Shown here piece after piece: positions 2,050 through 59,167 of a stretch of 64,000 nt of DNA. The stretch covers positions 248,001 to 312,000 of the forward strand of contig NZ_FWZT01000001.1 in assembly GCF_900177345.1 (NCBI RefSeq), in the 5' to 3' direction. The notes beneath the pieces are model-generated. The model saw nothing but the letters and a program-made list of their open reading frames with translations, did no database searches and had not been told where the DNA came from. Source of the stretch: Pseudobacteriovorax antillogorgiicola (GTDB lineage: Bacteria > Bdellovibrionota_B > Oligoflexia > Oligoflexales > Oligoflexaceae). Each line of letters begins with the position of its first letter. Position 1 is the stretch's first letter. The position numbers were made by a program, and so were the translations under genes.

Positions 2050-2969
2050 AGGAGGAGGACCCGATCGAGAGTCAGAGCACCGAAAATTCCAAACAAGTAA
2101 AAGCAGGAATAGTAGAAAAGAGGCATCGCCTTAGCTTCTCCAGTGGAACGGAGAAGCTTATACGCAAGCCAAATAAAGTAACCTGTCAATAAAGCACTCA
2201 GACTGAGATAGACCCAACCAGCATCTCCGCCCCAAAACAATAGGAATATCGGCGGAAGCAATGAGAGTGTGTAGTAAAAGATTTGCTTCTTTGTCTCAGG
2301 AACGCCACGCACAGAAGGCATCATAGGAATCTTTGCCTTCGCATAGTCATCGCGGTATTTGATTGCTAAGGCCCAAAAATGTGGGGGTGTCCAGAGAAAG
2401 ATCACAGCAAACAAATACCAAGCAGGCATTGCTAGAGTGTTTTGCACCGCAGCCCAGCCAATAAGAGGACCAACAGCACCGGCGGCTCCACCAATCACAA
2501 TGTTCTGCACCGTCCGGCGCTTTAGATACATAGTGTAGACAAGGACATAAAAGCCATTAGCAGCTAAAGCTACCCATGCCGCTAGAGGCGTCGCCCATCG
2601 GTACAGCATCACAAACGATATAATTCCTAAGAAGGTTGCGACAAAAAAAGCCAGGCGCTGCGATACCTTACCCGTCGGCAAAGGCCGCGATCGGGTACGA
2701 TTCATATGGCCATCGATATCTGAATCAGCCAGGTGATTAAATATGCCAGCGGAACCAGACGCTAGATAAGTTCCAAGCAAAGTGACAAGGGTCAATTGCA
2801 GGCTAGGCATGGAACCATTAGCCATGATAAGCGTCGGAACGACGGTAACAACCACCAGTAGTGAGATGGTTGGCTTCATCATTTGATAGATTGGTCTTAT
2901 CGATGCCAAAATTGGTGTAGAGGCATCGTTTTGGCTGACCATTGAATTGAGATTCGAACTCGTCTTCAT
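2046..2969 (-). CDS. ctaB: Protoheme IX farnesyltransferase (heme O synthase)
   Basis: UbiA-superfamily membrane prenyltransferase that converts protoheme to heme O for terminal oxidases. It has 307 residues with about nine hydrophobic segments. The prenyl-diphosphate-binding motif is present at about residues 78-86 (NHLADSDID), followed by RTRSRPLPTG, which is diagnostic for CtaB/CyoE. A second conserved region, DYAKAKIPMMPSVRG, also fits. AAGGG lies seven bases before the ATG. The oxidase structural genes are not in this window; a small membrane protein gene lies just upstream, and the dehydrogenase downstream overlaps it. Confidence 0.95.
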   Translation of the reverse strand: MKTSSNLNSMVSQNDASTPILASIRPIYQMMKPTISLLVVVTVVPTLIMANGSMPSLQLTLVTLLGTYLASGSAGIFNHLADSDIDGHMNRTRSRPLPTGKVSQRLAFFVATFLGIISFVMLYRWATPLAAWVALAANGFYVLVYTMYLKRRTVQNIVIGGAAGAVGPLIGWAAVQNTLAMPAWYLFAVIFLWTPPHFWALAIKYRDDYAKAKIPMMPSVRGVPETKKQIFYYTLSLLPPIFLLFWGGDAGWVYLSLSALLTGYFIWLAYKLLRSTGEAKAMPLFYYSCFYLFGIFGALTLDRVLLL

Positions 2970-3061
2970 CGTGATCCCTTAAACACGGTTTATACCGACG
3001 CTAAAGGCTAACTGACTTACTATGTTTTCCGGTCGGGGAGCAATAGGAATCTACCAAGTCG

Positions 3062-3205
3062 TTAATACGGAGTTGTATCACTGAACCACATGGGAGCCCA
3101 AACGCAAAGGAAAAAAAGCACTGGGAAGAGAACCATCATAAAAACGAGGGTCAACCAACCTTGGGACTCTCTTGCATTCTTTTCTTGAAGCTCATTGCTG
3201 GACAT
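3062..3205 (-). CDS. Small single-span membrane protein
   Basis: A 47-residue protein. The ATG at 3205 (MSSNELQEKN) has GGAG ten bases upstream, whereas the in-frame ATG at 3214 sits almost on the same GGAG and the upstream extension looks non-coding. A polar N-terminus of about 16 residues is followed by one hydrophobic helix (GWLTLVFMMVLFPVLFFLCV) and a short WFSDTTPY tail. Position just before ctaB and the LFPVLF helix recall small NapE-like or oxidase-accessory subunits, but the resemblance is weak and function is unknown. It is too short for a secure family call. Confidence 0.6.
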   Translation of the reverse strand: MSSNELQEKNARESQGWLTLVFMMVLFPVLFFLCVWAPMWFSDTTPY

Positions 3206-3291
3206 GTAAATCATTCTCCGAATTTTGTTGTGCCTACTAGACGGTGAAGTTTTATCACGAGGTAAAGCCAATAAAAAGCATAAAACAAGCT

Positions 3292-5547
3292 TTAGTGCGA
3301 TGTCACATTTTGCGGTGTGGCGCTATAAAGACTTTTATAGATCAGCCAGTTTCTCATCACTTTTTTGACATAATTCTTAGTCTCTGTGAAGGGAATATTT
3401 TCGATCCATACCATATCGTCGCTGAATGACCGTTTCGTATTCCAACGATCCACCACGTATTCTCCAGCATTGTACGAAGCAATCACCGAGACCCAATTGC
3501 CTTTATAATAGCTTCTTAGATGATCTAAGTAGCGACTGCCCACATGGACGTTGAATTTTGGGTCTTCCAGCCGATCGATCAGCTCCTTTTCACTCAGCTC
3601 CTGCTTGGAGAATTTACCAGCAGTCTTTGGCATCAATTGCAGCAAGCCCTTAGCACCTGCCCAACTGGTGGCATCCGCACGAAACCCACTTTCTTGCCTT
3701 GCGATAGCCAGTAAAAACTCGCGGGATAGGGGGTAACGGCTCGACCCTTCTGAAAAAACATCTTCAAAAGGTGCAGGGTAATAGACCAGAACCTGCTCGG
3801 GATACTTATGCCAAATTTTAGGCTCTGCAATTGCCACATTGGTGGTATGTCCCATTGCTAGGGGGAAAAGATTATTCATGTAAAGAATGCGAGTCACAAA
3901 GAGATGGGCCTCTGTATTTTTGAGCTTCAATCTCTTGCGAGCCTCTCGATAGAGTTCTTTGGCAGTCATGGGAGCGAGGTGTTTAGCTTCAATTAAGAGA
4001 GCAATCTCTGCCCTAAGTCGCAGACGGTTCAAGGTTTCGTCACGCAATAGTGGCCCAATATCAACATCCCAATTGGAAAGCTCTTTCCTCATTGCCATTT
4101 CGTTTTTGTCAAGCCACGTGGGTTTCTCCCATTTATAGTAATCCGCACCGTAGAGCCCGTAAAAGCCTAAGGGGTAGTTTTTCTCAAGGGCACGAAAGTA
4201 TTCGCTAAACTTACTTCGATTGCCAAGATCACGATGCACTTTAGCCATCCAGAAAAGGACCTGCTCTTTGAGGCTCTTGCTACGTGTACTAGTGAGCAGA
4301 GTTTTCCAAGATTTTAAAGCAGCTTTTGGTTTTCCATCTAGGTACTGATACCAACCGTCAAACCACGCGAACCTGTCTTGCCAAGTTTCAGATAGGTTCT
4401 CCAGTGCCAGGCCCTGACGATTCTGAAAATAAGCTCCAGAGAAGTCTTGCTGCTCTAGGGAGATCCGATAACCATGAATATGATGAGCCTCGGCTCGCAA
4501 TTCTTGAATGCTGTCTGATTGCTTGCGTGTCATCTGACCAATTTTTTCTGAACTCGCCTCGATTTTCTTAAGGGCGTCCTGCACGAAAGCTCTTGCAGAT
4601 AGATAGTCCCCCACCATAGCCCGGTAGCGTGCAGCCCATAGGGTGGTATTGATAAGCTCGTAGTGCCAATCATATTTTGAGTCCATTCCCATGCTTACCG
4701 CATCGAGCCGATCGTCTTTAAGCAACGTGACAAGAACTAGAAAGCCGTTGGCTGCAGCCTCACGATTCCCGAAGTAGCGTTCCAAGTCGACAATATGCCT
4801 AGCTGATGACACCGCAAAAGGTAGAGACTCCTTTTTCTTTCTAAGTTCAAAAAGCGTCTTTGAAAATAAGTCTAAGGCTGCCTGCCGTTGATCAGAGCAG
4901 ACATGTACCAGGGCCTGCCAATAGTCGCGGAGGCCTACTGGTATTGCCTTTACATAGGCCCGCCACTCATTTCTGCTCTTAGTTTTACAGTAAAGTTTTG
5001 CCGATCGCAGATATAAGGGGTCCTTAGTCTTAATGGATTGAAAGTCATCGGCGAACTTTTCTTCAGACTCATCTTGGTCCTTACTTAGAAAAGCTTTCAT
5101 ATCATTTGGTGACTCTAGCTTGTTTTTTCTAGCAAACCAACTTTGAGGGCCATTAGTTTCTTTCCAAAAAAAGCGTGCTATCGTTTCAGAGTCAGCTTCT
5201 GAGCCGAGGACTTTGGCGATAACAATCTGCCATTGGTCAAAGGCATAAAAAGCTATATCCCCCTCAAAGTTGGATACTATGTCCAACCAAGCCTCACTCG
5301 CCAGATGCCATTCCGCAAGTTTTTGATGATGCTCAGCTTGTAAAGCTAACTTCAAGTCTGCACTGTATTTTTGCCATTCGGGACGATCTTTAACGAGGCC
5401 TTGAAGCGCTTGCAACTGCTGTTTAGGCTCTGTATTTTGATCGAATTTCATGGGAATAACCGTTATTTCAAGAGTCGGTAGAACTCGCTGCGTGGTGCAC
5501 GATACCCCCAGAAAACCCAGTATCATTGAAACTACAAAATATTTCAT
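3292..5547 (-). CDS. Soluble-lytic-transglycosylase-type lipoprotein (Slt family)
   Basis: Cleaves the glycan strands of peptidoglycan to 1,6-anhydromuropeptides. The start at 5547 (MKYFVVSMIL) has GAAGG upstream and gives a lipoprotein signal ending in the lipobox LGVSC; the open frame up to 5637 is not used. A long alpha-helical N-terminal region (about residues 40-590), as in the Slt70 superhelix, precedes a C-terminal SLT lysozyme-like domain. The catalytic glutamate is about residue 619 of 751 (ARQESGF), followed by GLLQLMP and ASYNAGE. Predicted location is the periplasm, lipid-anchored, whereas E. coli Slt70 is soluble. It lies 20 bases after the GHMP kinase gene. Confidence 0.9.
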   Translation of the reverse strand: MKYFVVSMILGFLGVSCTTQRVLPTLEITVIPMKFDQNTEPKQQLQALQGLVKDRPEWQKYSADLKLALQAEHHQKLAEWHLASEAWLDIVSNFEGDIAFYAFDQWQIVIAKVLGSEADSETIARFFWKETNGPQSWFARKNKLESPNDMKAFLSKDQDESEEKFADDFQSIKTKDPLYLRSAKLYCKTKSRNEWRAYVKAIPVGLRDYWQALVHVCSDQRQAALDLFSKTLFELRKKKESLPFAVSSARHIVDLERYFGNREAAANGFLVLVTLLKDDRLDAVSMGMDSKYDWHYELINTTLWAARYRAMVGDYLSARAFVQDALKKIEASSEKIGQMTRKQSDSIQELRAEAHHIHGYRISLEQQDFSGAYFQNRQGLALENLSETWQDRFAWFDGWYQYLDGKPKAALKSWKTLLTSTRSKSLKEQVLFWMAKVHRDLGNRSKFSEYFRALEKNYPLGFYGLYGADYYKWEKPTWLDKNEMAMRKELSNWDVDIGPLLRDETLNRLRLRAEIALLIEAKHLAPMTAKELYREARKRLKLKNTEAHLFVTRILYMNNLFPLAMGHTTNVAIAEPKIWHKYPEQVLVYYPAPFEDVFSEGSSRYPLSREFLLAIARQESGFRADATSWAGAKGLLQLMPKTAGKFSKQELSEKELIDRLEDPKFNVHVGSRYLDHLRSYYKGNWVSVIASYNAGEYVVDRWNTKRSFSDDMVWIENIPFTETKNYVKKVMRNWLIYKSLYSATPQNVTSH

Positions 5548-7504: not shown

Positions 7505-7814
7505 TGACAACACCTTTGATCAAGCCTTAACTCAAAGTAAAAAACCAGCTTTGGTTTATTTTTGGGCACCCTGGTCAAAGCCATGCGAGTCTTTCACGGA
7601 CACCTTGGAAGAACTCCAGACCAACTATGACCAACGGCTAGAAATCTTTTGTATGAACGTCGATGAAAATGCTAACATCCCTGCCAGCTTGGGGGTTAGC
7701 CATATTCCTATGCTGGCCCGAATCAATCACGGCCAGATCCAAACATCGCTAATGGGTCGCCAAGCAAAAGTTAAAATTCGCGAGTTTGTGGCAAAGGTAG
7801 TCGATGAAAGTTGA
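7485..7814 (+). CDS. Thioredoxin-fold protein with a one-cysteine active site
   Basis: A 109-residue thioredoxin-like protein without signal peptide. The active-site region reads FWAPWSKPCESF, so the usual WCGPC is WSKPC: the nucleophilic first cysteine is serine (Ser31) and only Cys34 remains. The cis-proline motif (SHIPML) and the overall spacing are normal. Loss of the first cysteine should abolish ordinary disulfide reductase activity; a chaperone, binding or mixed-disulfide role is possible. Strong SD (AGGAG) before the ATG. It overlaps both neighbours (20 and 11 bases), which suggests a role tied to the operon product set. Confidence 0.82.
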   Translation: MKFQKLDDNTFDQALTQSKKPALVYFWAPWSKPCESFTDTLEELQTNYDQRLEIFCMNVDENANIPASLGVSHIPMLARINHGQIQTSLMGRQAKVKIREFVAKVVDES

Positions 7815-8463
7815 AACGAGCCTAGAGCGTGGAGATCTTGAAAAAAAGCTTATCAAAGACGGTTACCAAACCATCGTTGGAATCGATGAGGTTGGTCGCG
7901 GCTGCTTAGCAGGCCCCATCTATGCTGCCTGTGTAATTTTAGACTATAAATCTCTGTTTCAATTACCCGAATCACAACTTAAACTTATCCGCGACTCTAA
8001 GAAGCTCAGCCACTTACAGAGGCAAAAGATCATACCGGTAATCGAAGAAATCTCGGTCGAGCATCATGTTTGCTCGTCATCTGTCCGGGAAATTGAGAGC
8101 TTGGGAATCGTCGATGCCAACTTTCGCGCTATGCGTCGTGCCTTGAGACTTTGCCAATCCTCCCCGGATATTCTCTTGCTCGATGGCAATGCTAAGCTAC
8201 CCCGCTACGGGGGACAGCAAATCACTGTGGTCGAGGGGGATACCTTGTGTTTTGCTATTGCTGCCGCATCAATTTTAGCCAAAGAAGCCCGCGACCATTA
8301 CATGAGAAACCAAGCTAAACGTTATCCACAGTATGACTTCGATTCCAATGTTGGCTATGGCACGAGGAAGCATATGGATGGCATTAGCAGTCATGGCATC
8401 TGCCCTATCCACCGGCGGAACTTCGCCCCCATCGCCAAGTACGTCGATTCAATAGCTCCATGA
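7804..8463 (+). CDS. rnhB: Ribonuclease HII
   Basis: Cleaves the RNA strand of RNA-DNA hybrids and removes single ribonucleotides from DNA. The four catalytic acidic residues are visible: Asp28 and Glu29 in GIDEVGRG, Asp127 in LLDGN and Asp146 in VEGDT. The family signatures DSKKLS and AAASILAKEARD are also present. Length of 219 residues is usual, with a slightly extended N-terminus of about 15 residues. The start overlaps the end of the thioredoxin-like gene, and the stop overlaps the start of the yraN-like gene by 4 bases (ATGA). The rnhB-yraN pairing is common in bacteria. Confidence 0.96.
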   Translation: MKVETSLERGDLEKKLIKDGYQTIVGIDEVGRGCLAGPIYAACVILDYKSLFQLPESQLKLIRDSKKLSHLQRQKIIPVIEEISVEHHVCSSSVREIESLGIVDANFRAMRRALRLCQSSPDILLLDGNAKLPRYGGQQITVVEGDTLCFAIAAASILAKEARDHYMRNQAKRYPQYDFDSNVGYGTRKHMDGISSHGICPIHRRNFAPIAKYVDSIAP

Positions 8464-8828
8464 ACCACAAGGGCGCGTTGGCTGAGGAGAAGGTTTCAGT
8501 TTGGCTTGAACGACAAGGCTGGAAAACATTGGCCCGCAACTACCGTCACATTGGCTTCGAACTGGATATCGTCTCAGTTCAGGGCAAGACTCTATTGGTC
8601 ACGGAGGTCAAATCCCGCCCCTCTATTCATGATGAGAACGACTTACGCCCCGGCGATTACCTCACTGACCGGCAAATATCTAAAATTAAAAAGGGAATAG
8701 TACATTTCCTATCAGAAGTGCTGCTCGACATCGATAGTATACGCATGGATCTGGTAGTTGTTATGGGTATGAGGCAAGATAAATTAGCCCGATATAAAAA
8801 TATCAGGCTCAATTCACTTTCCGACTAG
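8460..8828 (+). CDS. YraN/UPF0102 family nuclease-like protein
   Basis: A 122-residue UPF0102 protein, a family with a PD-(D/E)xK (Holliday-junction-resolvase-like) fold. The N-terminal KGALAEEKVSVWLERQGW and RNYRHIGFELDIVS match the family. The probable metal-binding core is Glu52/Asp54-like residues in FELDIV plus the TEVKSR motif. The biological role of the family is not settled. Last gene of the operon; it ends 13 bases before the convergent rplS. The assignment is strong from sequence and from its coupling to rnhB. Confidence 0.9.
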   Translation: MNHKGALAEEKVSVWLERQGWKTLARNYRHIGFELDIVSVQGKTLLVTEVKSRPSIHDENDLRPGDYLTDRQISKIKKGIVHFLSEVLLDIDSIRMDLVVVMGMRQDKLARYKNIRLNSLSD

Positions 8829-47297: not shown

Positions 47298-47473
47298 GTT
47301 CTTCTCTCCATTCTAAGCTGGCCAAAAGGCTATATTAATAAAATTAATCATGTTTTCGTGATGAGATGACTTTTTTACCGGGTTCGATGCCGTCTCCACT
47401 ACAACCTAAGACCGATATCCTCCCTGTCAACACATCAATCGTGATAATATGAAAGAAAAAGGAGTTGCCAGAA
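47298..47473. other. Divergent intergenic region upstream of dnaK
   Basis: About 175 bases between dnaK (minus) and the zinc-ribbon gene (plus). No TTAGCACTC-type CIRCE repeat and no convincing sigma-32 site is present. A GATAAT box at 47443-47448 suits the plus strand but lacks a good -35. Nothing more can be supported. Confidence 0.4.
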
Positions 47474-48601
47474 TTGCATGAGCTAACCTGTCCATCCTGT
47501 AACAAACCATCGCAATATGTCTTTTCTGACTATCTGCTCATGTGCCCATTTTGCTCGGCCACCTTCCGGTTTGATACAGACTCTGGGCAGAAAGAGCTGT
47601 TTGGCGACCACTACATTGTTCCAAACCTACTGGATGCTGGAGCGGTGAAAGAGCTATCTCTTGAGTGGCTCAGACGGCTCCATCACCGTCCTGGAGCCGT
47701 AGACAAGGAGTTCTTCGTCGTCGATGTTCAAGGCTTCAGTCTGCCCGTGTGGGTGATATCCCTCGAAGCCCACACAGCGTGGAAAGGCCTGGTGAAGCGC
47801 CAAAACCCACTTCACGTGAACCTGTCATCAGCGGGCGAGCACCTTTTAGAATCGGGACAGTTCCGAAGAGGATATCGCTGGGCGATTTCAGCTCGGGCCA
47901 ATATATGCGAAACCTGGGGCCTCACACGGCTGCACGAACCACCAGAACCAATTAATACCGAGTGGGATGGTTTTCCTCTCGATTCAACCCTTTCCCGCGG
48001 CCGTCTTCTGGATGACGACCAGAAGTCTGCCTACGAAGCACGAAATTTCTTTGAATTCAAATACGCCAACGGCTTGCCGATCCTCGGAGTTCAGGTTGAT
48101 GAGCACGAGGCCTTAAGGCGGGCCAAAAATCATATTGAGCTATACCACTACAAAATCTCCACCCTCAATGCAGACTTTCTCATTGATAACCGAACAGAGG
48201 TAGAAGTCGCCGGCGTGCAGCTCATTCACATACCAGTTTGGAAAGTCGGGTATCTCTATCGACCTAAAAATATTTTGAGACACTTTTACAAAGGCCGTGA
48301 AAAGAGGCTCCTGATCGATGGTCACGGCAAGGGAGTTCTAACTGGTCAATTAGCTATGGTTCACACGGATAAAGTGCTCGTTAATGGGTATGTTACAAGT
48401 GGGGCTGCATTCTTCTTTTTGCTCGTTGGAATTCTGTGGCATCCTGCATTTATTGTGGTTGCCCTTTTCGCATTGATCGTAGCTGGAACCAGCTTCTACC
48501 AAAGTGCTCAAGCGCTCAAGGCCAAAGAGCTAGCACAATTAGAGAATATTTCAAACTCATTTGGCACAGACCCGTCCAAGAGTGCACAAGCTGCCTCATA
48601 G
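47474..48601 (+). CDS. Zinc-ribbon protein with C-terminal membrane segments
   Basis: A protein of about 375 residues starting at TTG 47474 (MHELTCPSCN), nine bases after AAGGAG; the upstream TTG at 47465 sits on the Shine-Dalgarno. The N-terminal 30 residues are a rubredoxin-like zinc ribbon: CPSC and, 14 residues later, CPFC. A large central region of unknown type follows (WVISLEAHTAWKGL, VWKVGYLYRPKN), then two hydrophobic helices near the C-terminus (AAFFFLLVGILWHPAFIVVA and onwards). The topology suggests a cytoplasmic protein anchored to the inner membrane. Function is unknown. Confidence 0.78.
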   Translation: MHELTCPSCNKPSQYVFSDYLLMCPFCSATFRFDTDSGQKELFGDHYIVPNLLDAGAVKELSLEWLRRLHHRPGAVDKEFFVVDVQGFSLPVWVISLEAHTAWKGLVKRQNPLHVNLSSAGEHLLESGQFRRGYRWAISARANICETWGLTRLHEPPEPINTEWDGFPLDSTLSRGRLLDDDQKSAYEARNFFEFKYANGLPILGVQVDEHEALRRAKNHIELYHYKISTLNADFLIDNRTEVEVAGVQLIHIPVWKVGYLYRPKNILRHFYKGREKRLLIDGHGKGVLTGQLAMVHTDKVLVNGYVTSGAAFFFLLVGILWHPAFIVVALFALIVAGTSFYQSAQALKAKELAQLENISNSFGTDPSKSAQAAS

Positions 48602-48647
48602 ACGGAAGCATATCGCCTGTACCAACGAGCGTCGCACTTATTCCACC

Positions 48648-49055
48648 CTATTCATGACTCTCTGGAATGGGCAGCGGTGGCATTGCCATCACGTGGCTTA
48701 ATTTCTCTGCTAATTCATCAAGGGAACAAGTTTTTGAAGCATAGTGATTTGGCTCAATTTCTTTTTCATAGGTTTCGATGACCCTAGGTTCATCCGCCAA
48801 AGCCGATACGATCAAACACCGTGGTGGATACGAAAGGCTCCGCATAATGCGATAGCACTCCAAACCATCCATTTCAGGCATAATGATGTCTAAGGAAACT
48901 AAGTCAGGGCTTAGTTCCTTGATTAAATCCAAAGCTTCCAAGCCGTTTTCTGCTTCTCCGACGACACGGTGACCTAGGCTTTCAAAGCGGTTTCTTAGAT
49001 CTTGTCGTAGTATTTGTGAGTCATCTACAACGAGTATGTTGAGAGCTTGATCCAT
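48648..49055 (-). CDS. CheY-like single-domain response regulator
   Basis: A 135-residue receiver without output domain. The set is complete: Asp11 and Asp12 (VVDDSQ), phosphoacceptor Asp56 (SLDIIMPEMDG), Ser84 (IVSALAD) and Lys108 (ASKTCS). The conserved KPF is SKTCS here, which is a small change near the lysine. CheY-like proteins act by binding a motor, kinase or enzyme. The C-terminus ends MAMPPLPIPESHE. No chemotaxis or kinase gene is adjacent. It is about 40 bases upstream (in coordinates below) of the ComEC-like gene on the same strand. Confidence 0.92.
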   Translation of the reverse strand: MDQALNILVVDDSQILRQDLRNRFESLGHRVVGEAENGLEALDLIKELSPDLVSLDIIMPEMDGLECYRIMRSLSYPPRCLIVSALADEPRVIETYEKEIEPNHYASKTCSLDELAEKLSHVMAMPPLPIPESHE

Positions 49056-49094
49056 GAAGCCGAACTCCTTTTCGATATCGATCCATTTTCGATT

Positions 49095-50384
49095 CTAGTC
49101 TTGTTTCCGCAATAAATCAGAAAAAATTTTTATTAGAAGAACCCCAAGAAGTAGAACCTTCAACTCCTCGCTAGGGCTCAACGACAGATCCCACGTTGCG
49201 AATTGATCCAGCCATTGGAACAACGAAAGTAGCATCCGTTGCCCTTCGAACACATACGAGGCGGAGTCGCCCCACGTCACCCACAAGTAGGCGCCAAAGA
49301 TCGAGCTAAGCAGCAACGCAAAGAAGGGAGCTAACAGCAAGTTTATCAGGATACTTAAGACTGTAATTGAAGGCAGAAAGACCAATAGGATTGCTGATAT
49401 CATCACCTGGCTTATAACAGCGTTCATCCAGGTCTTGCCAGAATCACGACTTACAAGAACCAAGTAAATCAGCCAAGTCAGTGCGAATGACATTGACAGA
49501 GCCGCGTAAGGGGCTAAAAACAAATGAATAAAGTGCACCAATAGCAATCGATGATTCAGGCTCAACCCAGAACCAAGCCACTGTTTGTGTCCTAAAATGC
49601 TCGTAAGGCAAGCCCTCTGGCAAGGAACTGAGAACCCCAGAAAGTAAGAAGCAATAATAACTGAAGATACTTGTGTTGGGAAAACCCAGTTCTTGACCCA
49701 CCGCCAGAGCCTCGGCGAAATCAGAGTCAAAACATAGAGTGACTTAGGTATCTGAGCCACAAGGCCACCTACAAACTTGAATACCAAACTCATATGAAAG
49801 CCCGAGAGAACAAGCAGATGATAAATACCCAAAGTTTTAAAAAGATCTTTGTAATAATGATACTCCCGGCTCATGCCGAGAATCACTCCTCGATAGATGT
49901 ACAAAAGATCAGATGGAATCTGATGGTCAAGAACCATCGCCTGTCGGGCTCGCCAATCACGACGCCAGCTACTTACCAAACTTGAACCAACTGGAGAATC
50001 TTCCATACCTTTGAAGCGACAGCTTCGATTCGAGCAAGTTAAAACTCCAATTTGGCCTTTCTTGGTATCTGCAAAGGCTAGCCAATCTCCCTTGGAACAA
50101 GCAACCAGCCATGGCCCTTCCAAGCCCAGACCTTGTTTGGATACAACAGCGCAATCATTAACGACTAATGGTATTTGCACCCGGTAACTGCCCCAGCCCC
50201 AAATAGCTCCTAGTGCAATCGTCACGCACTTCACAGCCACACGATGAAATCGGTCGCGAAAATATAATATAATGAGGGCAGCAATTGGGTAAATCGGCCA
50301 AGCCAAACTTCCGACCCATATGGAATCCGAATAGTGCTTTGCTAGCAAAGCGAAAATGTAAAACGAAGCAATAAACTCTAGCAT
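49095..50384 (-). CDS. ComEC/Rec2 competence-domain protein, lacking the metallo-beta-lactamase domain
   Basis: A 429-residue polytopic inner-membrane protein. The central part matches the Competence domain of ComEC, the DNA-uptake channel: LFKTLGIYHLLVLSGFHMSL (the HLLxxSGxH motif) and FSVPCQRACLTSIL. A soluble N-terminal segment of about 90 residues (after one or two helices) resembles the OB-fold/DUF4131 part. The C-terminal metallo-beta-lactamase domain common in ComEC is absent, as in the shorter forms of some lineages. GGGGG precedes the ATG. The CheY-like gene follows on the same strand. Confidence 0.82.
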   Translation of the reverse strand: MLEFIASFYIFALLAKHYSDSIWVGSLAWPIYPIAALIILYFRDRFHRVAVKCVTIALGAIWGWGSYRVQIPLVVNDCAVVSKQGLGLEGPWLVACSKGDWLAFADTKKGQIGVLTCSNRSCRFKGMEDSPVGSSLVSSWRRDWRARQAMVLDHQIPSDLLYIYRGVILGMSREYHYYKDLFKTLGIYHLLVLSGFHMSLVFKFVGGLVAQIPKSLYVLTLISPRLWRWVKNWVFPTQVSSVIIASYFLGFSVPCQRACLTSILGHKQWLGSGLSLNHRLLLVHFIHLFLAPYAALSMSFALTWLIYLVLVSRDSGKTWMNAVISQVMISAILLVFLPSITVLSILINLLLAPFFALLLSSIFGAYLWVTWGDSASYVFEGQRMLLSLFQWLDQFATWDLSLSPSEELKVLLLGVLLIKIFSDLLRKQD

Positions 50385-50463
50385 AAGCCCCCATTCAAAG
50401 GACCTTTACTAGCGCAAAAACAACAACATTAAAGAAGACATCTCTACGATTTAAGGGGACATT

Positions 50464-51435
50464 TTGAGCACAAGCAGCTACCTATCTCACTACCCAAACC
50501 TTGAGCAGTGGTACTTTCATAAGGGCCTGCAAGACGAAAACCGAACTCTGTTTCGCCTTTGCCGCTCCCTGAATGCCGAGGGGTTCAACGAAGTCTGTGA
50601 CAATATTTCATTTTTCTTTTTGAATTTGACGAACTTGTCTGAAAACGACCTTATTGAAACCTTGGAAGATTTAGAGACTTACTGTAGCGCTATGAAGACC
50701 AACTATCACAATCTAGTTGTTCAAATTGTAGAACGAAGTATTAAAGAAGATTGCTGGCAGTCGCTATATAGCTCCCTATCTGCTCTAGCAAGAAAATCAA
50801 AAATGTCAATCTATTGCTTTATGTCAGCGTGGATGGCCCTCAACACCGATAAACGTGAAGATTGCCTAGAATTCTACGAGCTATCAGATCAAAAGAACGC
50901 CGACTTTCACAGTCTACTCGGTCAAGCATATATTGAGCTTGAACAGTTCGACAAGGCCCATCGATGCTTCGAGCTATCCACAGAGATGGCGCCACTCGAT
51001 CCCATCCATTGGTTTTGGCATGCAAAGTCGGCCTTCACTTTGGGACTTACTGACGAGGCATGGCAATCAGCAAAAGAGTGCCAGAACCTTTTACCCCACA
51101 ATGCTGAAGCTTGCGTGCTACTTGGAATGATTACGACAGAAATAGATGGACCTCGACAGAGCCAGTTAGAAGTCGCTTGGAATGCACTTTGGCCACTCAT
51201 CGACCATGTGGAGGATCCTGGTTTCCTGGCTCAGCTCATGTTTGGCATCGGCTTTAAGATGAGCGATGAGAGCTACACTCACGCTCTCATCGAAAAAATC
51301 AACTTCAAGCGCCTTGCCAGAAATACAGAATTCATAGGGAAGTTAGGCTCAATCCTAAGGGAGCTAGCTAGTAAGCCATGGCCCGAGACAAACCGACTTT
51401 TCCTAGAAAAATATCAGGAAGCCCTCAGAGCATGA
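50464..51435 (+). CDS. TPR-containing protein
   Basis: A 323-residue cytoplasmic protein from TTG 50464, with AAGGGG six bases upstream. TPR-like helical repeats appear in the centre (FHSLLGQAYIELEQFDKAHR, IHWFWHAKSAFTLGLTDEAW, AEACVLLGMITTEIDG) with more degenerate repeats on either side. An N-terminal helical region of about 100 residues is different (FNEVCDNISFFFLNLT). No signal peptide or enzyme motif is seen. Its arrangement resembles regulatory chaperones of secretion systems, but no secretion genes are nearby. It converges with lpxC. Confidence 0.8.
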   Translation: MSTSSYLSHYPNLEQWYFHKGLQDENRTLFRLCRSLNAEGFNEVCDNISFFFLNLTNLSENDLIETLEDLETYCSAMKTNYHNLVVQIVERSIKEDCWQSLYSSLSALARKSKMSIYCFMSAWMALNTDKREDCLEFYELSDQKNADFHSLLGQAYIELEQFDKAHRCFELSTEMAPLDPIHWFWHAKSAFTLGLTDEAWQSAKECQNLLPHNAEACVLLGMITTEIDGPRQSQLEVAWNALWPLIDHVEDPGFLAQLMFGIGFKMSDESYTHALIEKINFKRLARNTEFIGKLGSILRELASKPWPETNRLFLEKYQEALRA

Positions 51436-51456: not shown

Positions 51457-52386
51457 CTAGCCGAGATTGGCCCAAGCAGGCCTGAAAACTTGTGATGCTG
51501 TTGAAACGTGTTCTTTGGGCCGAACAAAAGGGCTTATGAACATCGCTTCTAAATACTCGGACTCATTTTCCAAAAGTGCTTTTGTAAACTTTGCCGTTAA
51601 AGCGTGTCCTGGCTTGTGAACCTTGACATCGCCAAGGAACGGAGCACCTAACAATGCCATGTCACCGATCAAATCAAGAAGCTTATGCTCAGCAAACTCC
51701 TCTTGGGAACGTAAGCCTTCAGCGTTTAGCAAGCCATCATCAGAAATCACAATAGCATTTTCTAGGGAACCACCAAGAGCAAGGCCTTGTTCCTTCATCA
51801 TATTCACGTCTTTGATATGACAGAACGTACGGGCATTCGCGACACGAATAAAATTCTCAGTACTCGCCCAATAATCAACCGACTGCTTGCCAATCATGTG
51901 GAACGGAAAGTCGATACTGCATTGGTATCGTTGCCGACGAGATGGTTCGATACGTATAAACTGATCGCCTTCTCTGATTTCAAAGGGCTTGATCACCTTC
52001 CAAATCTTTTGTGCCTTATCTAACTCGCGAATACCGGCAGTCATCAATTTTTTTACAAACGGCTTTGAGCTTCCATCCATAATGGGAACCTCTGGCGCAT
52101 TGAGCCTCACAATTGCGTTTGATATCCCTAGGCCTGCAAATGCAGCCATCAAGTGCTCGATCGTAGAAACTGAAGACGGGCCTAGTCCGATAGTCGTGGA
52201 GAGTGCCGTCGAGGTAATATTAAATGCGTGAGCTTGGATAGGTTCAGCTGCTGGGTCGTCATTGCGATGGAAAACGATCCCTGTATCAGCTTTCGCAGGA
52301 AGAACATCAAGATGAACAATTCGTCCACAGTGAAGCCCCTTGCCGGTGAACCGAACTTTGGATTGGATGCTAGTCTGTTTCGTCAT
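51457..52386 (-). CDS. lpxC: UDP-3-O-acyl-N-acetylglucosamine deacetylase
   Basis: Zn-dependent enzyme for the first committed step of lipid A synthesis. The ATG at 52386 (MTKQTSIQSKVRFTGKGLHC) gives a length before TGxGLH matching E. coli LpxC; ATG 52395 is a close alternative. The zinc ligands are visible: His78 (TIEHLMAAF) and the pair in EEFAEHKLLDLIGDMALLG, plus the catalytic histidine in KPGHALTAKF. 309 residues. It is transcribed away from the gene cluster at 52.6-56.4 kb, with 205 bases of non-coding DNA between them. Confidence 0.96.
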   Translation of the reverse strand: MTKQTSIQSKVRFTGKGLHCGRIVHLDVLPAKADTGIVFHRNDDPAAEPIQAHAFNITSTALSTTIGLGPSSVSTIEHLMAAFAGLGISNAIVRLNAPEVPIMDGSSKPFVKKLMTAGIRELDKAQKIWKVIKPFEIREGDQFIRIEPSRRQRYQCSIDFPFHMIGKQSVDYWASTENFIRVANARTFCHIKDVNMMKEQGLALGGSLENAIVISDDGLLNAEGLRSQEEFAEHKLLDLIGDMALLGAPFLGDVKVHKPGHALTAKFTKALLENESEYLEAMFISPFVRPKEHVSTASQVFRPAWANLG

Positions 52387-52591
52387 AATTCCCATGAATG
52401 CTACCTTGTCTCTATCCAAAAAGTAAGAACCCTAGGTATGATGCAATCCTCATGCCACTGTGATAATTATATAATATACTGTAATTATTTCAACTTCTCT
52501 GCAAGTCGAGGCACTACAGGATTTTCTGTGGTGATCTTGCAACATTACCTCGGCAAGGTGTGTTGCAGTTTTACCACAATGAAAGAGTGTC

Positions 52592-54400
52592 CTAGCAGAA
52601 GTGATCTCGGATGTCATTACAACATTCCGGCCAATTTTGCTCGAGGTAGTAAATAGGCCGACGCACTCCACTATCATAATGGCTTAGGTGGGGTAAGCAG
52701 CTGCCATAAGGCATTCCGAGAGATGCGCCAATAAGCACCCCAATATCCTGATGGGCATCCGATTGAAACTCCCTCTTTACCGTCGCAAACATAAGCATCG
52801 CAAACATTTCAAAGTGCAGGTTGATATTCTCACCATAGAGTTGCGGTTCTTGCCCTTGATTGCGAGTCGACTCCACCTTGACATCTCGCCAAGAGCCAAT
52901 GGCGAGATGGCGAGAGTCAAGAACCTTGCCTCCTAAAGATGAGCAAACGTCTCGTTTAGATCGCACCGTAAGGAAGCTTTCCCACATCTCTGTCGAAGCT
53001 AAGAACCGCCAGCCATAGTCTTTTGCTAGCTTCAAAATTTGCTCGATGCCGCCTCGGAATCCAGATGACACCCGAATCAATTCTTCAAGCGCCCAACTTC
53101 TTAAGAAATCTGACAGATAAGTTTCGCCTGGGGATAGAATCATGCGAAAGCCACAAATTTCCAAAAACTCCTGATCAAAAGACTCATTCCTTCGCATTTC
53201 TACAGTGATCGAGCGATTTCTTTCTTCAGAGAGCGTGAGTGCAGACCAGGTTTGCCCCAGAATAGAGACCGAAAGCGTGCCATCGTCCTGCCAAGCAACC
53301 CAATCCATATAAGGCTGACGCCTCTTTTCCGCCCACGTCACTTGATGCCGCCAAAGATCGAGCAAACGAGGCTGCCCCTGCCTCTCCACCCCTTTGTAGA
53401 GAGAGTCTAAAGATCGCTTCAACTTTGATCTTTGGCTGGCAATGATGACAACCGACCAGCCATGCTCCAACAATGACACCAAAGACACCACGGGGGCTGG
53501 TCTTTGGTTCACATCCAAATAAATCACTTGTTCGTTGAAGACTCTGGCGGGATGAGCTGGAATCACCCTAGGCTTTTCTACCGTTCTCATAAAGTAATTG
53601 GTAAACAGAAAGCAAGCACTACTGTCCACCATCCATCGAGCAGTATCAAGCCGATCCTGGCTTCGCTTCAGGCGCAGCAGGGCACTTGACCAATGATCTG
53701 CTGACTCTAACTCTGATTGCAAAGGCGGAAGCCGATCCAAGCAATCGAGATAAAAATCAAGCAGAACATCGGGTCCTTTAAAAGGCTCTTTTGTAGGAAA
53801 GCTATGGCTTTCAACCCAATTTTTAGCAGAATCGATCCAGTCTTCGGCATGTATCATCACTTGAGGGCCAATGGTACCAGCTTCGTCAAGAAGCCTCACA
53901 GGCTTTGTCTCCCATTGCTCCATGAGTTTATGGCTGCGAAAATAGGCACGTTCAAAAACTCCAGCCAAGGGGAAGATCCGTGCTCGGATCTCGGGAAAAC
54001 CAAAGTTTATAGGAACGCGAAAGGAAATAAAGTGATCGCAGGCCATGGCTAGCTCAGCAAAAGTCGATAGGCAGTCTTCGTGGCAGCAGTATATCCAACG
54101 TGACGAAGACTTGATCATGGCACGACAAATAAATCTCAGTTTGTAGACAGAAAATCGAAGCTCGTCCAGATAAGTATCGAGCCGAATTTCCTTAATAAAT
54201 TCATGAGAAAATGCCTGAGCTGGACCATTTTGCAACAGCAAAACCGTTGTGGGATCTTGCTCTTGTCGGTATAGCGATAAAGCCAGCTGATAGAGTTTAT
54301 CAAGAGTCGGTCGCCCTCCCCGGCTCAAGAGATGAATCGCTCCATCAAGCTCTACCACGAGATAGCCCAATTTAACTTGATCCTTTTGAGAGGAATGCAA
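52592..54400 (-). CDS. FadB/FadJ-like protein with a lost NAD-binding motif
   Basis: A protein of about 602 residues whose parts follow the order of a multifunctional beta-oxidation alpha subunit. The N-terminal 200 residues fit an enoyl-CoA hydratase domain: the catalytic glutamates are retained in TFAELAMACD and FGFPEIRARIFP, but the oxyanion-hole glycines are gone (CLSTF instead of ALGGG). Around residue 290, where 3-hydroxyacyl-CoA dehydrogenase has GxGxxG, the protein reads DVNQRPAPVVSLV, so NAD binding is unlikely. The final part (IGVLIGASLGMPYGSCLPHL) mimics the FadB C-terminus. It overlaps the thiolase-like gene by about 29 bases. TTG 54400 is preferred over 54406. Not a known annotated enzyme; identified by reading. 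Confidence 0.65.
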   Translation of the reverse strand: MHSSQKDQVKLGYLVVELDGAIHLLSRGGRPTLDKLYQLALSLYRQEQDPTTVLLLQNGPAQAFSHEFIKEIRLDTYLDELRFSVYKLRFICRAMIKSSSRWIYCCHEDCLSTFAELAMACDHFISFRVPINFGFPEIRARIFPLAGVFERAYFRSHKLMEQWETKPVRLLDEAGTIGPQVMIHAEDWIDSAKNWVESHSFPTKEPFKGPDVLLDFYLDCLDRLPPLQSELESADHWSSALLRLKRSQDRLDTARWMVDSSACFLFTNYFMRTVEKPRVIPAHPARVFNEQVIYLDVNQRPAPVVSLVSLLEHGWSVVIIASQRSKLKRSLDSLYKGVERQGQPRLLDLWRHQVTWAEKRRQPYMDWVAWQDDGTLSVSILGQTWSALTLSEERNRSITVEMRRNESFDQEFLEICGFRMILSPGETYLSDFLRSWALEELIRVSSGFRGGIEQILKLAKDYGWRFLASTEMWESFLTVRSKRDVCSSLGGKVLDSRHLAIGSWRDVKVESTRNQGQEPQLYGENINLHFEMFAMLMFATVKREFQSDAHQDIGVLIGASLGMPYGSCLPHLSHYDSGVRRPIYYLEQNWPECCNDIRDHFC

Positions 54401-55286
54401 TATCAATGTCTCCCGTGCTATGGCAGTGAACCCAAACTACATCAGAGTTTCCACTCTCTATAGCTAAGTGTAAGCAGTTCATTAAAGAGCCTAAGCTGTG
54501 GTAGCCGTAGTAGAATTGCGGAACACTGAGATTCGTGATGCGGGATGGGTAAATCAAGTTATGAAGGCAAGCAAGCAGAGACAAGTCGTCTGAGTCCAGA
54601 ATCACAGTCGCCCCCCGGCGGCAGTACTGTGCAATGGCCTCTTCAAGATAGCTTGGAAAGCTTTTAAAAAAATCATAGCTATATTGCCTTTGAGGCTCCG
54701 CACGAACGCGTAGGCGGCGAATGTTTACACCCTTTCCTGGCCGCAAGCTAGCACCGCCGAGCAGTTGCCCTGATTGTCGCCCATACGCCGAGCTACCGAG
54801 CTTCACCGACTCTTCAAGGTCATAAAAATGGCCATCTGTCCCTTGAAAAATCTCTCCACCCACAGAAAATAGGGAACGGGGGCCTCGATTAGGGTTATCC
54901 ATAGTTGTGTTAAAAAAACTGGAAAGTGTATCTTGATGCTTCAGTGTGGCTGACTGCCCTCGAACCTTTTCTGAATTGGCTACGGTGAATATCATGGGAG
55001 ATTGGCTAGCACGAGCTAACAGGTGAAAAACATCAAGTCGGTGAGTATCCCACTGTTCGTAACTTCGAAAGTGTCTAACCAACTGGGTCGGCTCCTGATA
55101 TTCTTGAACCAAAGAGATCCAATGATAGTTGCTAGCGCTGTCATCTACCAGACCAAACGCCAATGAACTTAGATACTTATATTCATCAAGTTTCTTGGGA
55201 AACGAGCCCTGAGGGGCGCGCAAGTAGCGAATTCCCACCAAATCAAGCTCTATAGTCTCAAGACCTAGTTCCGAAAAGCCCTTCAT
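54372..55286 (-). CDS. Thiolase-like protein without nucleophilic cysteine
   Basis: A 304-residue protein that looks like a shortened thiolase (FadA/FadI type). The C-terminal half follows the thiolase order: a DDLSLLACLHNLI segment where NEAFA normally is, YYGYHSLGS matching GHPLG with its histidine, and VWVHCHSTGD matching MCIGGG with its cysteine. The N-terminal half (residues 70-110) has YEQWDTHRLDVFHLLARAS where thiolases carry the nucleophilic Cys in NxxCxS, so acyl transfer is unlikely. About 80 residues of the usual 390 are missing. It overlaps the TPR gene by 4 bases and the FadB-like gene by about 29. Assignment is by eye and tentative. Confidence 0.55.
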   Translation of the reverse strand: MKGFSELGLETIELDLVGIRYLRAPQGSFPKKLDEYKYLSSLAFGLVDDSASNYHWISLVQEYQEPTQLVRHFRSYEQWDTHRLDVFHLLARASQSPMIFTVANSEKVRGQSATLKHQDTLSSFFNTTMDNPNRGPRSLFSVGGEIFQGTDGHFYDLEESVKLGSSAYGRQSGQLLGGASLRPGKGVNIRRLRVRAEPQRQYSYDFFKSFPSYLEEAIAQYCRRGATVILDSDDLSLLACLHNLIYPSRITNLSVPQFYYGYHSLGSLMNCLHLAIESGNSDVVWVHCHSTGDIDIAFLSKGSS

Positions 55287-56371
55287 CCGTGACTAATCTC
55301 ACCTTCTAGTCGCGTCACCGCCTCTTGCAATCGTTCCTTCAACTGCTCTTCATCCACTTGCGACTTCATGAGCTGTAAGCATTCTACCACTTGCTTCCAG
55401 TTCTGGTTGTGAATATGAATCTCTACCATATTTTCGAGGGGCTCTAGAATTCTAGGCTGGGCTTCAGCACTCACACGATACGACTCCAACGCCCTCTCTT
55501 GCTCGCCAATAAGCTCCTGAAGTTCTCCTATTTTCAGGTAGATAATAGCCCTATTTGTATTACCCTCAACTTTGGGTAAATAAGACTCCAAAACTTCCAG
55601 GCAGCCCTTCCAGTTCTTGAGCCGATAATAGGCTTCATAGTGAATGGAGGAGGTATCCAATGGACTGTCTTTGCAATATTTTTCTAGAACAGAGATGGAC
55701 TGCTCAGGAAGATCCATCTGAAACAGATATACCGTAGCCAGCTCTTGCGCGATGCGATAACCATCATTGACATGTTTTGCCCCCTTATAGAGCTTTTTCA
55801 GCACCTCCACCACGTTTTCCCAAGCCTGGTTCTGGGTATAGACAGCTTTAAAATAGCGTAAAGCTTTCAAATTATTTTGATCTAACTTAATCAGTGCTTC
55901 GTAGCTACGATTCAACCCATCTTCATCGTACTTCTTCTTCTCGTAGATTAAACAAAGACGTTCGGTACAGGCGATTTTTTCATCTTGAGTGGTAAGTACA
56001 GGTTTGATGCTCTCAAGAATTTGAGCCTCTTTCCCAAAATCGTCTTCGCCCAAAAGCTTCACCAAAACTTTCTGACGAAACTCTTGGTATGAGAGCCTAT
56101 GATTTTTGACTAAATCGCGGCAGGTTTCAGCAACTTTAGGGGTATCCTCTAGGCAAATAGCATAGATACGAGCCAGACGCACGTAATCTCTGGCTCTGCG
56201 ACGAGCGCTATCTTTAATCTTCGCAAATAGAAGCCGAAACAACGGCTTCCAGCATTCATACTCTTCGAGAACATCCAAGTAGGCATCGACTTTTTTTTCA
56301 TCGATCGTTCTAGACTTTAGATCTCTGATAGCTATTTCGATGGGGATCGATTGGTCAGGCTGCTGAGCCAA
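55283..56371 (-). CDS. TPR/HAT-like helical repeat protein
   Basis: A 362-residue cytoplasmic protein. The start is TTG 56371, because GGAGG lies six bases upstream; the ATG at 56389 has a poorer site. The whole chain consists of helical repeats resembling TPR or HAT motifs (YVRLARIYAICLEDTPKVAE, IAQELATVYLFQMDLPEQSI, IIYLKIGELQELIGEQERAL). No enzyme or membrane feature. It is the first gene of the overlapping operon with the thiolase-like and FadB-like genes. A binding or scaffolding role for those proteins is a reasonable guess only. Confidence 0.78.
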   Translation of the reverse strand: MAQQPDQSIPIEIAIRDLKSRTIDEKKVDAYLDVLEEYECWKPLFRLLFAKIKDSARRRARDYVRLARIYAICLEDTPKVAETCRDLVKNHRLSYQEFRQKVLVKLLGEDDFGKEAQILESIKPVLTTQDEKIACTERLCLIYEKKKYDEDGLNRSYEALIKLDQNNLKALRYFKAVYTQNQAWENVVEVLKKLYKGAKHVNDGYRIAQELATVYLFQMDLPEQSISVLEKYCKDSPLDTSSIHYEAYYRLKNWKGCLEVLESYLPKVEGNTNRAIIYLKIGELQELIGEQERALESYRVSAEAQPRILEPLENMVEIHIHNQNWKQVVECLQLMKSQVDEEQLKERLQEAVTRLEGEISHG

Positions 56372-56471
56372 GATAAACCTCCGTCGCATGAATTTACCCT
56401 AAATCATATCAGAAATGCGACTCGATCTCTTGTAAATCAGGAGGGGTTTACTTGAAGGTAGGGCCGCAAGA

Positions 56472-57065
56472 CTAAGAAACAAGTCCCTTAAGAATCATAT
56501 CCTTCGCCGTTTTGATCATCTCATCGTAATCGAACACATTCTCATCAAAGAGCCACTGCAAACTGAGACCATCAATGACCGAAACGATAAAAGATGCATA
56601 GATATGAGAATCAACATTCTTAAACACACCAGCATTGACCCCCTCAGAGATGACGCTCGCACATGTGTCCCGGAACTTCGCGTAGTGGCGAGAGATGACC
56701 TGACGGACTTCTTTCTTCTGGTTGATCTGCGTCCAGAAATCCATGTTCACCTGATAGTATTCTTTGGTGCTTCGAACCACATCGAAGCTCACCGACATAA
56801 AGATCTCAAGCTTCTTGATCGGATCGTCTATGGACTTCATATCTTCAGCGAGGACTCCCTCGATGTCCCCCGCGACGCGATCCAACACCGACATCATCAA
56901 GTCATCTTTGTTCAAGAAGTAGTAATGAATAATTCCTTTACTGACGCCAGCAGTTCGGGCAACATCTTGCATAGAAAAGTTATGATAACCATGCTTAGTA
57001 ATACACTCGACAGTCGCTCGTACAATCTGGTCTTTTCGTTCAGCAGCCACATCCGGCTTCGACAT
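56472..57065 (-). CDS. TetR/AcrR-family transcriptional regulator
   Basis: A 197-residue repressor-type protein. The N-terminal helix-turn-helix is clear: ATVECITKHGYHNFSMQDVA followed by RTAGVSKGIIHYYFLNKDDL. The C-terminal ligand domain (residues 60-197) is helical and has no readable ligand. Family members that control fatty-acid genes (FadR-type TetR) have this architecture, but the ligand cannot be deduced. It sits at the junction of the minus-strand operon and the plus-strand outer-membrane gene, so it may control both. The divergent 261-base region holds the likely operator. Confidence 0.9.
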   Translation of the reverse strand: MSKPDVAAERKDQIVRATVECITKHGYHNFSMQDVARTAGVSKGIIHYYFLNKDDLMMSVLDRVAGDIEGVLAEDMKSIDDPIKKLEIFMSVSFDVVRSTKEYYQVNMDFWTQINQKKEVRQVISRHYAKFRDTCASVISEGVNAGVFKNVDSHIYASFIVSVIDGLSLQWLFDENVFDYDEMIKTAKDMILKGLVS

Positions 57066-57326: not shown

Positions 57327-58433
57327 ATGCGAATTTTTATTAGCGTCACTTTGACGCTTATAACCTTGTTCTTTGGTCCCACACTCATCGCAAAACAGCA
57401 ACCAGCCTGGACTCATTACGGACTCAGGCCGTTAGGGATGGGGAATGCGTTTGTAGCTGTGGCCGACGATTTCAATGCTTTGTTCTATAATCCCGCGGGC
57501 CTGGCTCGCCTGGATACCTGGGACGCTGAACTCATTAACCCAACATTGAAGTGGTCGGCTGAGGCACAAGGCCTCGTGGAAGACTTTCAAGACTTGGGTG
57601 GAACGAGCGAAACCCTTGAGCTCATCGAAAAGAATACCGGTGAAAGCCAGATGTTCGGACTCAATCTCACCCCTCACTTGGTGTTTCGCAACTTTGGCTT
57701 CGGGCTTGGGGTCGATGTAGAACTTTCCATGATCTTTCATCGCGATATATCGGTGGATGTTCAGTCAGGGGTGACCGTGATTATGCCATTCTCATTTGCG
57801 TTTAACCTCCTAGACGATCGCCTGAGCCTTGGGTTTTCTATAAAAGCCCGCGCCTTCGGAGGTGTCGACCGGGAGTTTAGCATGGAAGATATCGAGGCCT
57901 TAGGCGACAATAATGACTCCGACACTACCAACGATGACACGCAAGAGCTATCGGACTTCGTCCTAGGGGGCCTCGGCGTCGGGACTGACTTTGGGCTTCT
58001 GTTTACCCCGACTAAAACGCTGGAGCCTACGATCGGCCTGAGTATCACCGACTTTGGCGGCACAGCCTACGAAGAAGCCAATATCTCCGGAGAAGCCTTA
58101 GGGGCACCACCTGTAGTGCTTCCCAGTGTCAACGTGGGGCTTAGCCTTAAGCCATACAAAAAAAATCGTTCCTACGTTACGACAGCCATCGATATGCACT
58201 CGATCAATCACCCTTACTCCTTCTCTCAGAAGCTTCAGCTTGGCGTAGAATATGGTTATGGACAATTCTTCAAAGTCCAAGGAGGTCTCTACAAAGGGTA
58301 CCCCACGGCAGGACTCCAGTTAGACGTCGGCATCATTAACTTGAGGCTCGTCACATATGCGGAAGAAATCGGTTCGGTCGCTGGGTACCAACCTAGCCGC
58401 CGTTATGCGCTCCAAATAAAACTATTATTCTAA
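57327..58433 (+). CDS. OmpP1/FadL-like outer-membrane protein
   Basis: A 368-residue exported beta-barrel protein with a signal peptide (MRIFISVTLTLITLFFGPTL). The mature N-terminus carries the OmpP1/FadL/TodX-type motif LRPLGMGNAFVAVADDFNAL followed by FYNPAGLARLD. Alternating strands run to the C-terminal residue Phe (ALQIKLLF), typical of outer-membrane insertion. A surface loop with many Asp/Asn (ALGDNNDSDTTNDDTQEL) may bind Ca. FadL proteins import long-chain fatty acids or hydrophobic compounds. GGGAGCAGGT precedes the ATG. A second outer-membrane gene follows 17 bases later. Confidence 0.82.
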   Translation: MRIFISVTLTLITLFFGPTLIAKQQPAWTHYGLRPLGMGNAFVAVADDFNALFYNPAGLARLDTWDAELINPTLKWSAEAQGLVEDFQDLGGTSETLELIEKNTGESQMFGLNLTPHLVFRNFGFGLGVDVELSMIFHRDISVDVQSGVTVIMPFSFAFNLLDDRLSLGFSIKARAFGGVDREFSMEDIEALGDNNDSDTTNDDTQELSDFVLGGLGVGTDFGLLFTPTKTLEPTIGLSITDFGGTAYEEANISGEALGAPPVVLPSVNVGLSLKPYKKNRSYVTTAIDMHSINHPYSFSQKLQLGVEYGYGQFFKVQGGLYKGYPTAGLQLDVGIINLRLVTYAEEIGSVAGYQPSRRYALQIKLLF

Positions 58434-58450
58434 CGGTGAGGACCATCTCC

Positions 58451-59167
58451 ATGTTTAAAACTATGATTATATCTATCTCCTTTGCCTTGGTGAGCCCGGC
58501 TCTCCTTGCCAAAGGCTTAAAAGATCTAAAACCCGACTCAGAAACCATTGAAAAAGCGAAAGAAACCATCGATCAAGTAAAAGAAGCGGTTGATAAAAAG
58601 CTAGAAGGCAAAGAAGTAGAACCCAAGAAAGACAAGCAGCAGGAGATCAAAAAAGAAGTAGAAAAAAAAGAGCCCACCGGTGATGGCGAGTTTTACCTGG
58701 GTCTCGGTTTTGGATTCGCCAGCTTAAAGGGCTCCGGCGGTAGCTGGGATACAGGTTTTTCAGGGGATTTTGAGCTTGGCGTGAGATTCATGAAAATCAT
58801 GGGCGACAGAGTTCAACTCTATGGCACCTATCGTTTTGTTCCGGTAGACATCATTGTTACTGAAAATGCCAATCAATATAAGGGAGTCGTGGAGCAACAC
58901 CTTTTTGGGGCCTCAGCCCGCTACGTTCTTGCCTCCAAACTTCATATCACAGCTCATGGTGCTCTCGGCCTAGCAAGCTCGTCACTAAAGCCTACTGGAA
59001 CTCTCACCAGCACTGAGGACCCTGAGGAGTCTGGCGCTGCCATCTCGCTAGGAGGGGGAGCTCAATGGCTCGTAAGTTCGAAGGTCTGGCTTGGAGCATT
59101 CTTATCCCTGGGTGCCGGAACATTCCAATACAGTCAACTTGGCGTTTCAACGACAGTGAGCTTATAA
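58451..59167 (+). CDS. Outer-membrane beta-barrel protein with charged N-terminal helix
   Basis: A 238-residue protein from ATG 58451 (MFKTMIISISFALVSPALLA, a signal peptide). A charged, lysine- and glutamate-rich helical stretch (residues about 20-75, for example EKAKETIDQVKEAVDKKLEG) precedes a small beta-barrel of the OmpA/porin-like type (GEFYLGLGFGFASLKG onwards) ending TTVSL. The highly charged region could sit in the periplasm and bind peptidoglycan or another partner. Families with this combination are not known to me. It is cotranscribed with the FadL-like gene. Confidence 0.75.
   Translation: MFKTMIISISFALVSPALLAKGLKDLKPDSETIEKAKETIDQVKEAVDKKLEGKEVEPKKDKQQEIKKEVEKKEPTGDGEFYLGLGFGFASLKGSGGSWDTGFSGDFELGVRFMKIMGDRVQLYGTYRFVPVDIIVTENANQYKGVVEQHLFGASARYVLASKLHITAHGALGLASSSLKPTGTLTSTEDPEESGAAISLGGGAQWLVSSKVWLGAFLSLGAGTFQYSQLGVSTTVSL

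Follow-up and report, generated by a model that had tools for sequence, protein, structure and literature searches.

A conserved gene pair of the Oligoflexales combines a divergent FadJ-like protein with a probable degenerate thiolase

As a rule, pseudoenzymes are single proteins. Crotonase-fold proteins whose active sites are altered, such as CDYL, may bind CoA without acting as ordinary hydratases, and the chain-length factor (KS-beta) of type II polyketide synthases is a thiolase-superfamily subunit that has lost its catalytic Cys and serves its partner. The locus described herein possibly shares with the CDYL-type crotonases a fold that binds CoA outside an ordinary hydratase role, but those are not multi-domain beta-oxidation proteins, whereas here a whole two-subunit beta-oxidation module appears to be altered; the pathway of KS-beta is unrelated, and the partner in the present case is FadJ-like. 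Literature searches on crotonase or FadJ pseudoenzymes returned nothing relevant. In E. coli, FadJ is the alpha subunit of the anaerobic trifunctional enzyme, and the fadI-fadJ genes are arranged with the thiolase gene ahead of the alpha-subunit gene, the two overlapping or abutting. The same order was found for the genes 54372-55286 and 52592-54406 of the window, i.e., the whole 64,000-nucleotide stretch of Pseudobacteriovorax antillogorgiicola DNA that was analysed (Table 1). In the enzyme from M. tuberculosis, the catalytic residues are Glu119, Glu141 and His462, together with Cys92 of the thiolase (PMC11301753).

Table 1. Features of the FadJ-like locus and its surroundings, in window coordinates; residue numbers refer to the 604-aa protein.
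Feature	Residues	Position	Strand	Remarks
378-aa protein, zinc-ribbon-like start		47465-48601		recurs beside locus
Response-regulator receiver protein		48648-49055		recurs beside locus
ComEC-like competence gene		49095-50384		recurs beside locus
Second TPR protein (not that of the operon)		50464-51435		recurs beside locus
lpxC		51457-52419	-	downstream neighbour, retained in most lineages
FadJ-like alpha-subunit homologue		52592-54406	-	604 aa from TTG, or 592 aa from TTG 54370
Hydratase domain	about 10-200
Eroded crotonase active-site loop	106-127	54026-54091	-	CLSTF replaces CLGGG; Glu118 kept (canonical first catalytic Glu)
Second active-site segment	133-150	53957-54010	-	FGFPE; Glu139 kept (canonical second catalytic Glu)
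Linker	about 200-290
Eroded NAD-binding-like domain	about 290-425
Ex-NAD-binding GxGxxG loop	296-307	53486-53521	-	now YLDVNQRPAPVV
C-terminal domains	about 430-600
Partner gene		54372-55286	-	304 aa, predicted thiolase fold; 3' end overlaps listed start of FadJ-like ORF
TPR-repeat protein		55283-56389	-	368 aa; conserved in operon, and beyond it in Silvanigrellales
TetR-family regulator		56472-57065	-	197 aa; identity mostly 60-85% across the order
FadL/TodX-like outer-membrane protein gene		57327-58433	+	weak Pfam match (16.7 bits; cut-off 29.7)
Second outer-membrane beta-barrel-like protein		58436-59167	+	PF13505 above cut-off

The protein encoded at 52592-54406 is very distantly related to the beta-oxidation alpha subunits, FadJ being the nearest, and the similarity to FadB/FadJ, which the initial annotation had proposed, was present over the full length both in profile searches and in the comparison of predicted structures. 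In the profile-profile comparison by hhalign, the family matched a FadJ-type profile, built from the FadB and FadJ proteins of E. coli together with four genuine FadJ-type sequences from this order, with a probability of 98.2 and an E-value of 5.9e-14 over 591 columns. When PDB sequences were searched with the family profile, the top matches were alpha subunits including E. coli FadJ (8e-11), and the NCBIfam FadJ model (PRK11154/TIGR02440) was matched by 17 of the 22 family members (best, 7e-8). With its AlphaFold model (pLDDT 81) as query, the window protein retrieved only trifunctional-enzyme/MFE1 alpha chains among the best 50 Foldseek matches in the PDB, all with a probability of 1.00 and the best with an E-value of 9.6e-14, TM-scores being modest or low (about 0.3). 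The protein by itself gave no Pfam match at E-values up to 10, no match to the FadJ model at 0.01, and only marginal matches to enoyl-CoA hydratases (0.1-1.5), and its relation to FadJ is thus secure only via the family, which neither Pfam nor NCBIfam lists under a separate name. By profile and fold it shares the full-length domain order of FadJ, but is about 100 aa shorter. The reading frame contains no internal stop, and TTG 54370 is its likelier start, judging from an AAAGGA motif shortly 5' of it and the stop codon of the upstream gene directly before it.

Alignment with E. coli FadB/FadJ and the four genuine FadJ-type proteins placed CLSTFAELAMACD over CLGGGLELALACD, FGFPE over LGLPE, and LDVNQRPAPV over the GxGxxG loop, the corresponding motifs of the 604-aa protein being DCLSTFAELAMACD (E118), FGFPEIRARIFP (E139) and YLDVNQRPAPV (296-306). 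As first read from the sequence, both hydratase glutamates are kept as in FadJ, E118 and E139 being aligned with the canonical catalytic pair. With these residues intact the protein could be an enzyme, and some hydratase-type chemistry is perhaps left over in it. Almost every family member has Glu or Asp at the first catalytic position, and the second Glu is absent from several lineages, being replaced by Gly in L090 and L101/L113/L115/L123, by Ala in L095 and by Gln in L092. Unlike FadJ, the protein has not kept the glycines of the oxyanion loop: the canonical CLGGG is CLSTF, which lies just before the first catalytic Glu and not after the glutamates, where it had originally been placed. The oxyanion glycine position is indeed occupied by another residue, Thr115, but a backbone NH serves as the oxyanion donor (N of Gly100 in rat MFE1; PMC5715344), so that losing the glycine alone need not abolish the oxyanion hole.

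The loss of the NAD motif, likewise claimed initially, was confirmed and found to be accompanied by that of the dehydrogenase histidine, both being features of FadJ. In place of GxGxxG the protein has DVNQRPAPV; each canonical glycine occurs in at most 10 of the 36 family rows, and the family consensus shows a new conserved motif, D-x-[NST]-x(3)-PP. The column of the catalytic His (H446 in FadJ and His462 in the M. tuberculosis trifunctional enzyme) is a gap in all 36 rows, the segment that carries this residue having been deleted across the family. As far as the established mechanism goes, these alignments would exclude a dehydrogenase function. The share of canonical invariant residues that the family keeps is 31% for the hydratase domain, 10% for the NAD domain and 15% for the C-terminal domains. 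Of the 25 family columns that are invariant or nearly so, 9 fall in the active-site stretch 112-139 of the crotonase domain. Since the crotonase pocket is the best-preserved part, acyl-CoA binding is the likeliest property to have been retained.

The overlapping upstream gene had been missed in the initial annotation. Its AlphaFold model (pLDDT 81.5, pTM 0.83) matched exclusively condensing enzymes of the thiolase/ketosynthase superfamily among the best 50 Foldseek matches (best E-value 4.4e-8, TM about 0.5), and it resembles FadI/FadA in this predicted fold and in its location 5' of the alpha-subunit gene. In contrast to FadI/FadA, however, the partner is about 100 aa shorter and has no detectable sequence similarity to thiolases: a family search with the 304-aa protein gave no match, and the hhalign comparison with thiolases, using the whole set and its subclades, gave probabilities near 0. 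It also differs from them in having no conserved Cys or His column, as no column of the weak 23-member alignment contained Cys in more than six or His in more than nine members. From the predicted fold and gene position, the partner is probably a degenerate thiolase, and a thiolase function appears unlikely. Taken as a whole, the pair resembles a fadI-fadJ module that is complete but degenerate, as indicated on the partner side by fold and position, and the proper object of study is probably this gene pair and not the FadJ-like protein singly. Family and protein searches of the same genome revealed a genuine FadJ-type gene accompanied by a thiolase gene of its own, an intact pair (ORFs 2677-4032 and 3981-6185 of L099) in which the thiolase gene lies directly upstream, touching or overlapping, and an additional 3-hydroxyacyl-CoA dehydrogenase/thiolase pair; the degenerate module is thus not the beta-oxidation system of this organism.

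Protein searches detected relatives in 25 of the 56 genomes near that of the window, the named records at this locus coming from Oligoflexus, Pseudobacteriovorax and other Oligoflexales. Identity between the window protein and the members of the 22-member alignment (A1) was 16-23%; the A1 profile recovered additional, more divergent members, and long open frames occur in at least 17 genera of the order. The dN/dS ratios were 0.110, 0.122 and 0.114 in three pairs of close relatives for the FadJ-like gene and 0.110 and 0.090 in two close pairs for the partner gene, both genes evolving faster than that of the TetR regulator (0.00-0.03). The FadJ-like and partner genes are functional genes under purifying selection. 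The initial annotation had listed repurposing and decay of the homologue among its readings; with dN/dS values of 0.11-0.12 and orthologues throughout the order, decay of the FadJ-like gene was rejected and repurposing gained support. The pair is absent from the locus in some Oligoflexales (L116, L133, L135 and L136) and is thus not essential across the order. A 704-aa ORF at the locus in G021, considered as a canonical FadB kept there, was rejected as such, being likewise degenerate.

The order of the locus is TetR, TPR, the 304-aa gene, the FadJ-like gene, pyrF in some genomes, and lpxC, with the FadL-like porin gene and the second beta-barrel gene divergent from the TetR operon. The high conservation of TetR contrasts sharply with that of the FadJ-like and partner proteins. 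Among 47 TetR loci of named genomes, the FadJ-like gene was present at 32, with a recognisable partner directly upstream in 29 of these, and the partner profile was never recognised at a locus lacking the FadJ-like gene. In the regions upstream of 48 TetR genes, no common word stood out that could represent a shared operator, and hence no regulon could be predicted.

Taking the computed FadJ-like ancestry, motif losses, conserved locus and purifying selection together, we favour, at a probability of roughly 0.5, the reading that the pair is a repurposed, largely non-catalytic acyl-CoA-binding complex acting as a sensor or scaffold. Both genes would descend from a fadI-fadJ (thiolase plus hydratase/dehydrogenase) module that was repurposed early in the Oligoflexales, and their products probably still assemble in a trifunctional-enzyme-like manner, as gene overlap and co-occurrence suggest. 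The dehydrogenase would be dead, with its NAD loop and catalytic His gone, and the thiolase probably so, having no conserved Cys, while the crotonase-type pocket would probably still bind acyl-CoA. Judging from the gene context, the pair may then cooperate with the TPR protein and the TetR regulator encoded beside it in a lipid/envelope setting, to which the FadL-like porin and LpxC point. The more far-reaching proposal that a complete beta-oxidation multienzyme (FadI plus FadJ) was converted once, order-wide, to a non-catalytic acyl-CoA sensor complex coupling fatty-acid status to the TetR regulator and envelope lipid synthesis is tentative and on balance doubtful.

The pair might alternatively include a living, specialised crotonase-type enzyme, with E118 and E139 catalysing hydration, isomerisation or a related reaction of an unusual acyl-CoA and the dehydrogenase and thiolase parts being only structural or substrate-holding. 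This protein and most of its orthologues carry both glutamates, nearly all members have an acid at the first position, usually Asp within one family of the order as though acidity were required, and canonical residues are kept most in the hydratase domain. Against these stand the loss of the second Glu in several lineages that kept the locus, the bulky residues in the glycine-rich loop (GSWWE, LSTFAE) and an identity of 16-23%, which is very low overall conservation for an enzyme, and we consider this alternative unlikely. Another possibility is a structural role alone, in which the pair would serve the TPR protein or the envelope machinery as a scaffold and would no longer bind acyl-CoA. Against it stands the conservation of the active-site segments in the hydratase domain, which is among the highest in the protein; such a role would account for the invariant W358, W466, W475 and P566 outside the pocket and for the D...PP motif in place of the NAD loop, and yet appears distinctly improbable. 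A fadIJ operon relic that is slowly eroding and has no function today would agree with the extreme divergence and motif loss, with the reduction to a C-terminal remnant in L142, and with the four loci devoid of the pair, but hardly with long open frames across the genera, the absence of internal stops here, the dN/dS of 0.11-0.12, or the conserved position and order, and it is very improbable.

If the favoured reading of a repurposed acyl-CoA-binding complex is true, the locus would offer a clear example of a metabolic complex that became a device for binding or regulation, in which both subunits of a well-studied two-subunit enzyme were apparently altered together and long kept beside the intact original, and a large group of unannotated Oligoflexales proteins would gain a name.

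Several variations of the locus were observed. Genes recurring beside it in many relatives occupy 47465-51435 of the window. In the Silvanigrellales, examined for an ancestral form of the locus, TetR and mostly the TPR gene are kept and the FadI/FadJ-like genes are absent; at several loci (L138, L139, L140, L145 and L149), the gene next to the conserved TetR-TPR pair encodes an unrelated protein of about 450 aa, in which the motifs EWRYY and YYEHSFG are conserved. In L142, a C-terminal remnant of the FadJ-like gene of merely 326 aa (7649-8629) lies between tetR and pyrF/lpxC. In G019 (L091 6266-7855 and L127 7001-8354), the FadJ-like gene adjoins lpxC on one contig and TetR is located on a separate contig, followed by an unrecognised 255-aa ORF that the partner profile misses and that may be a very divergent partner. 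In G026 (L090 8233-10076; L131 is of the same genome), the FadJ-like gene is followed by two genes that by reading look like etfB and etfA, their sequences resembling electron-transfer flavoprotein subunits.
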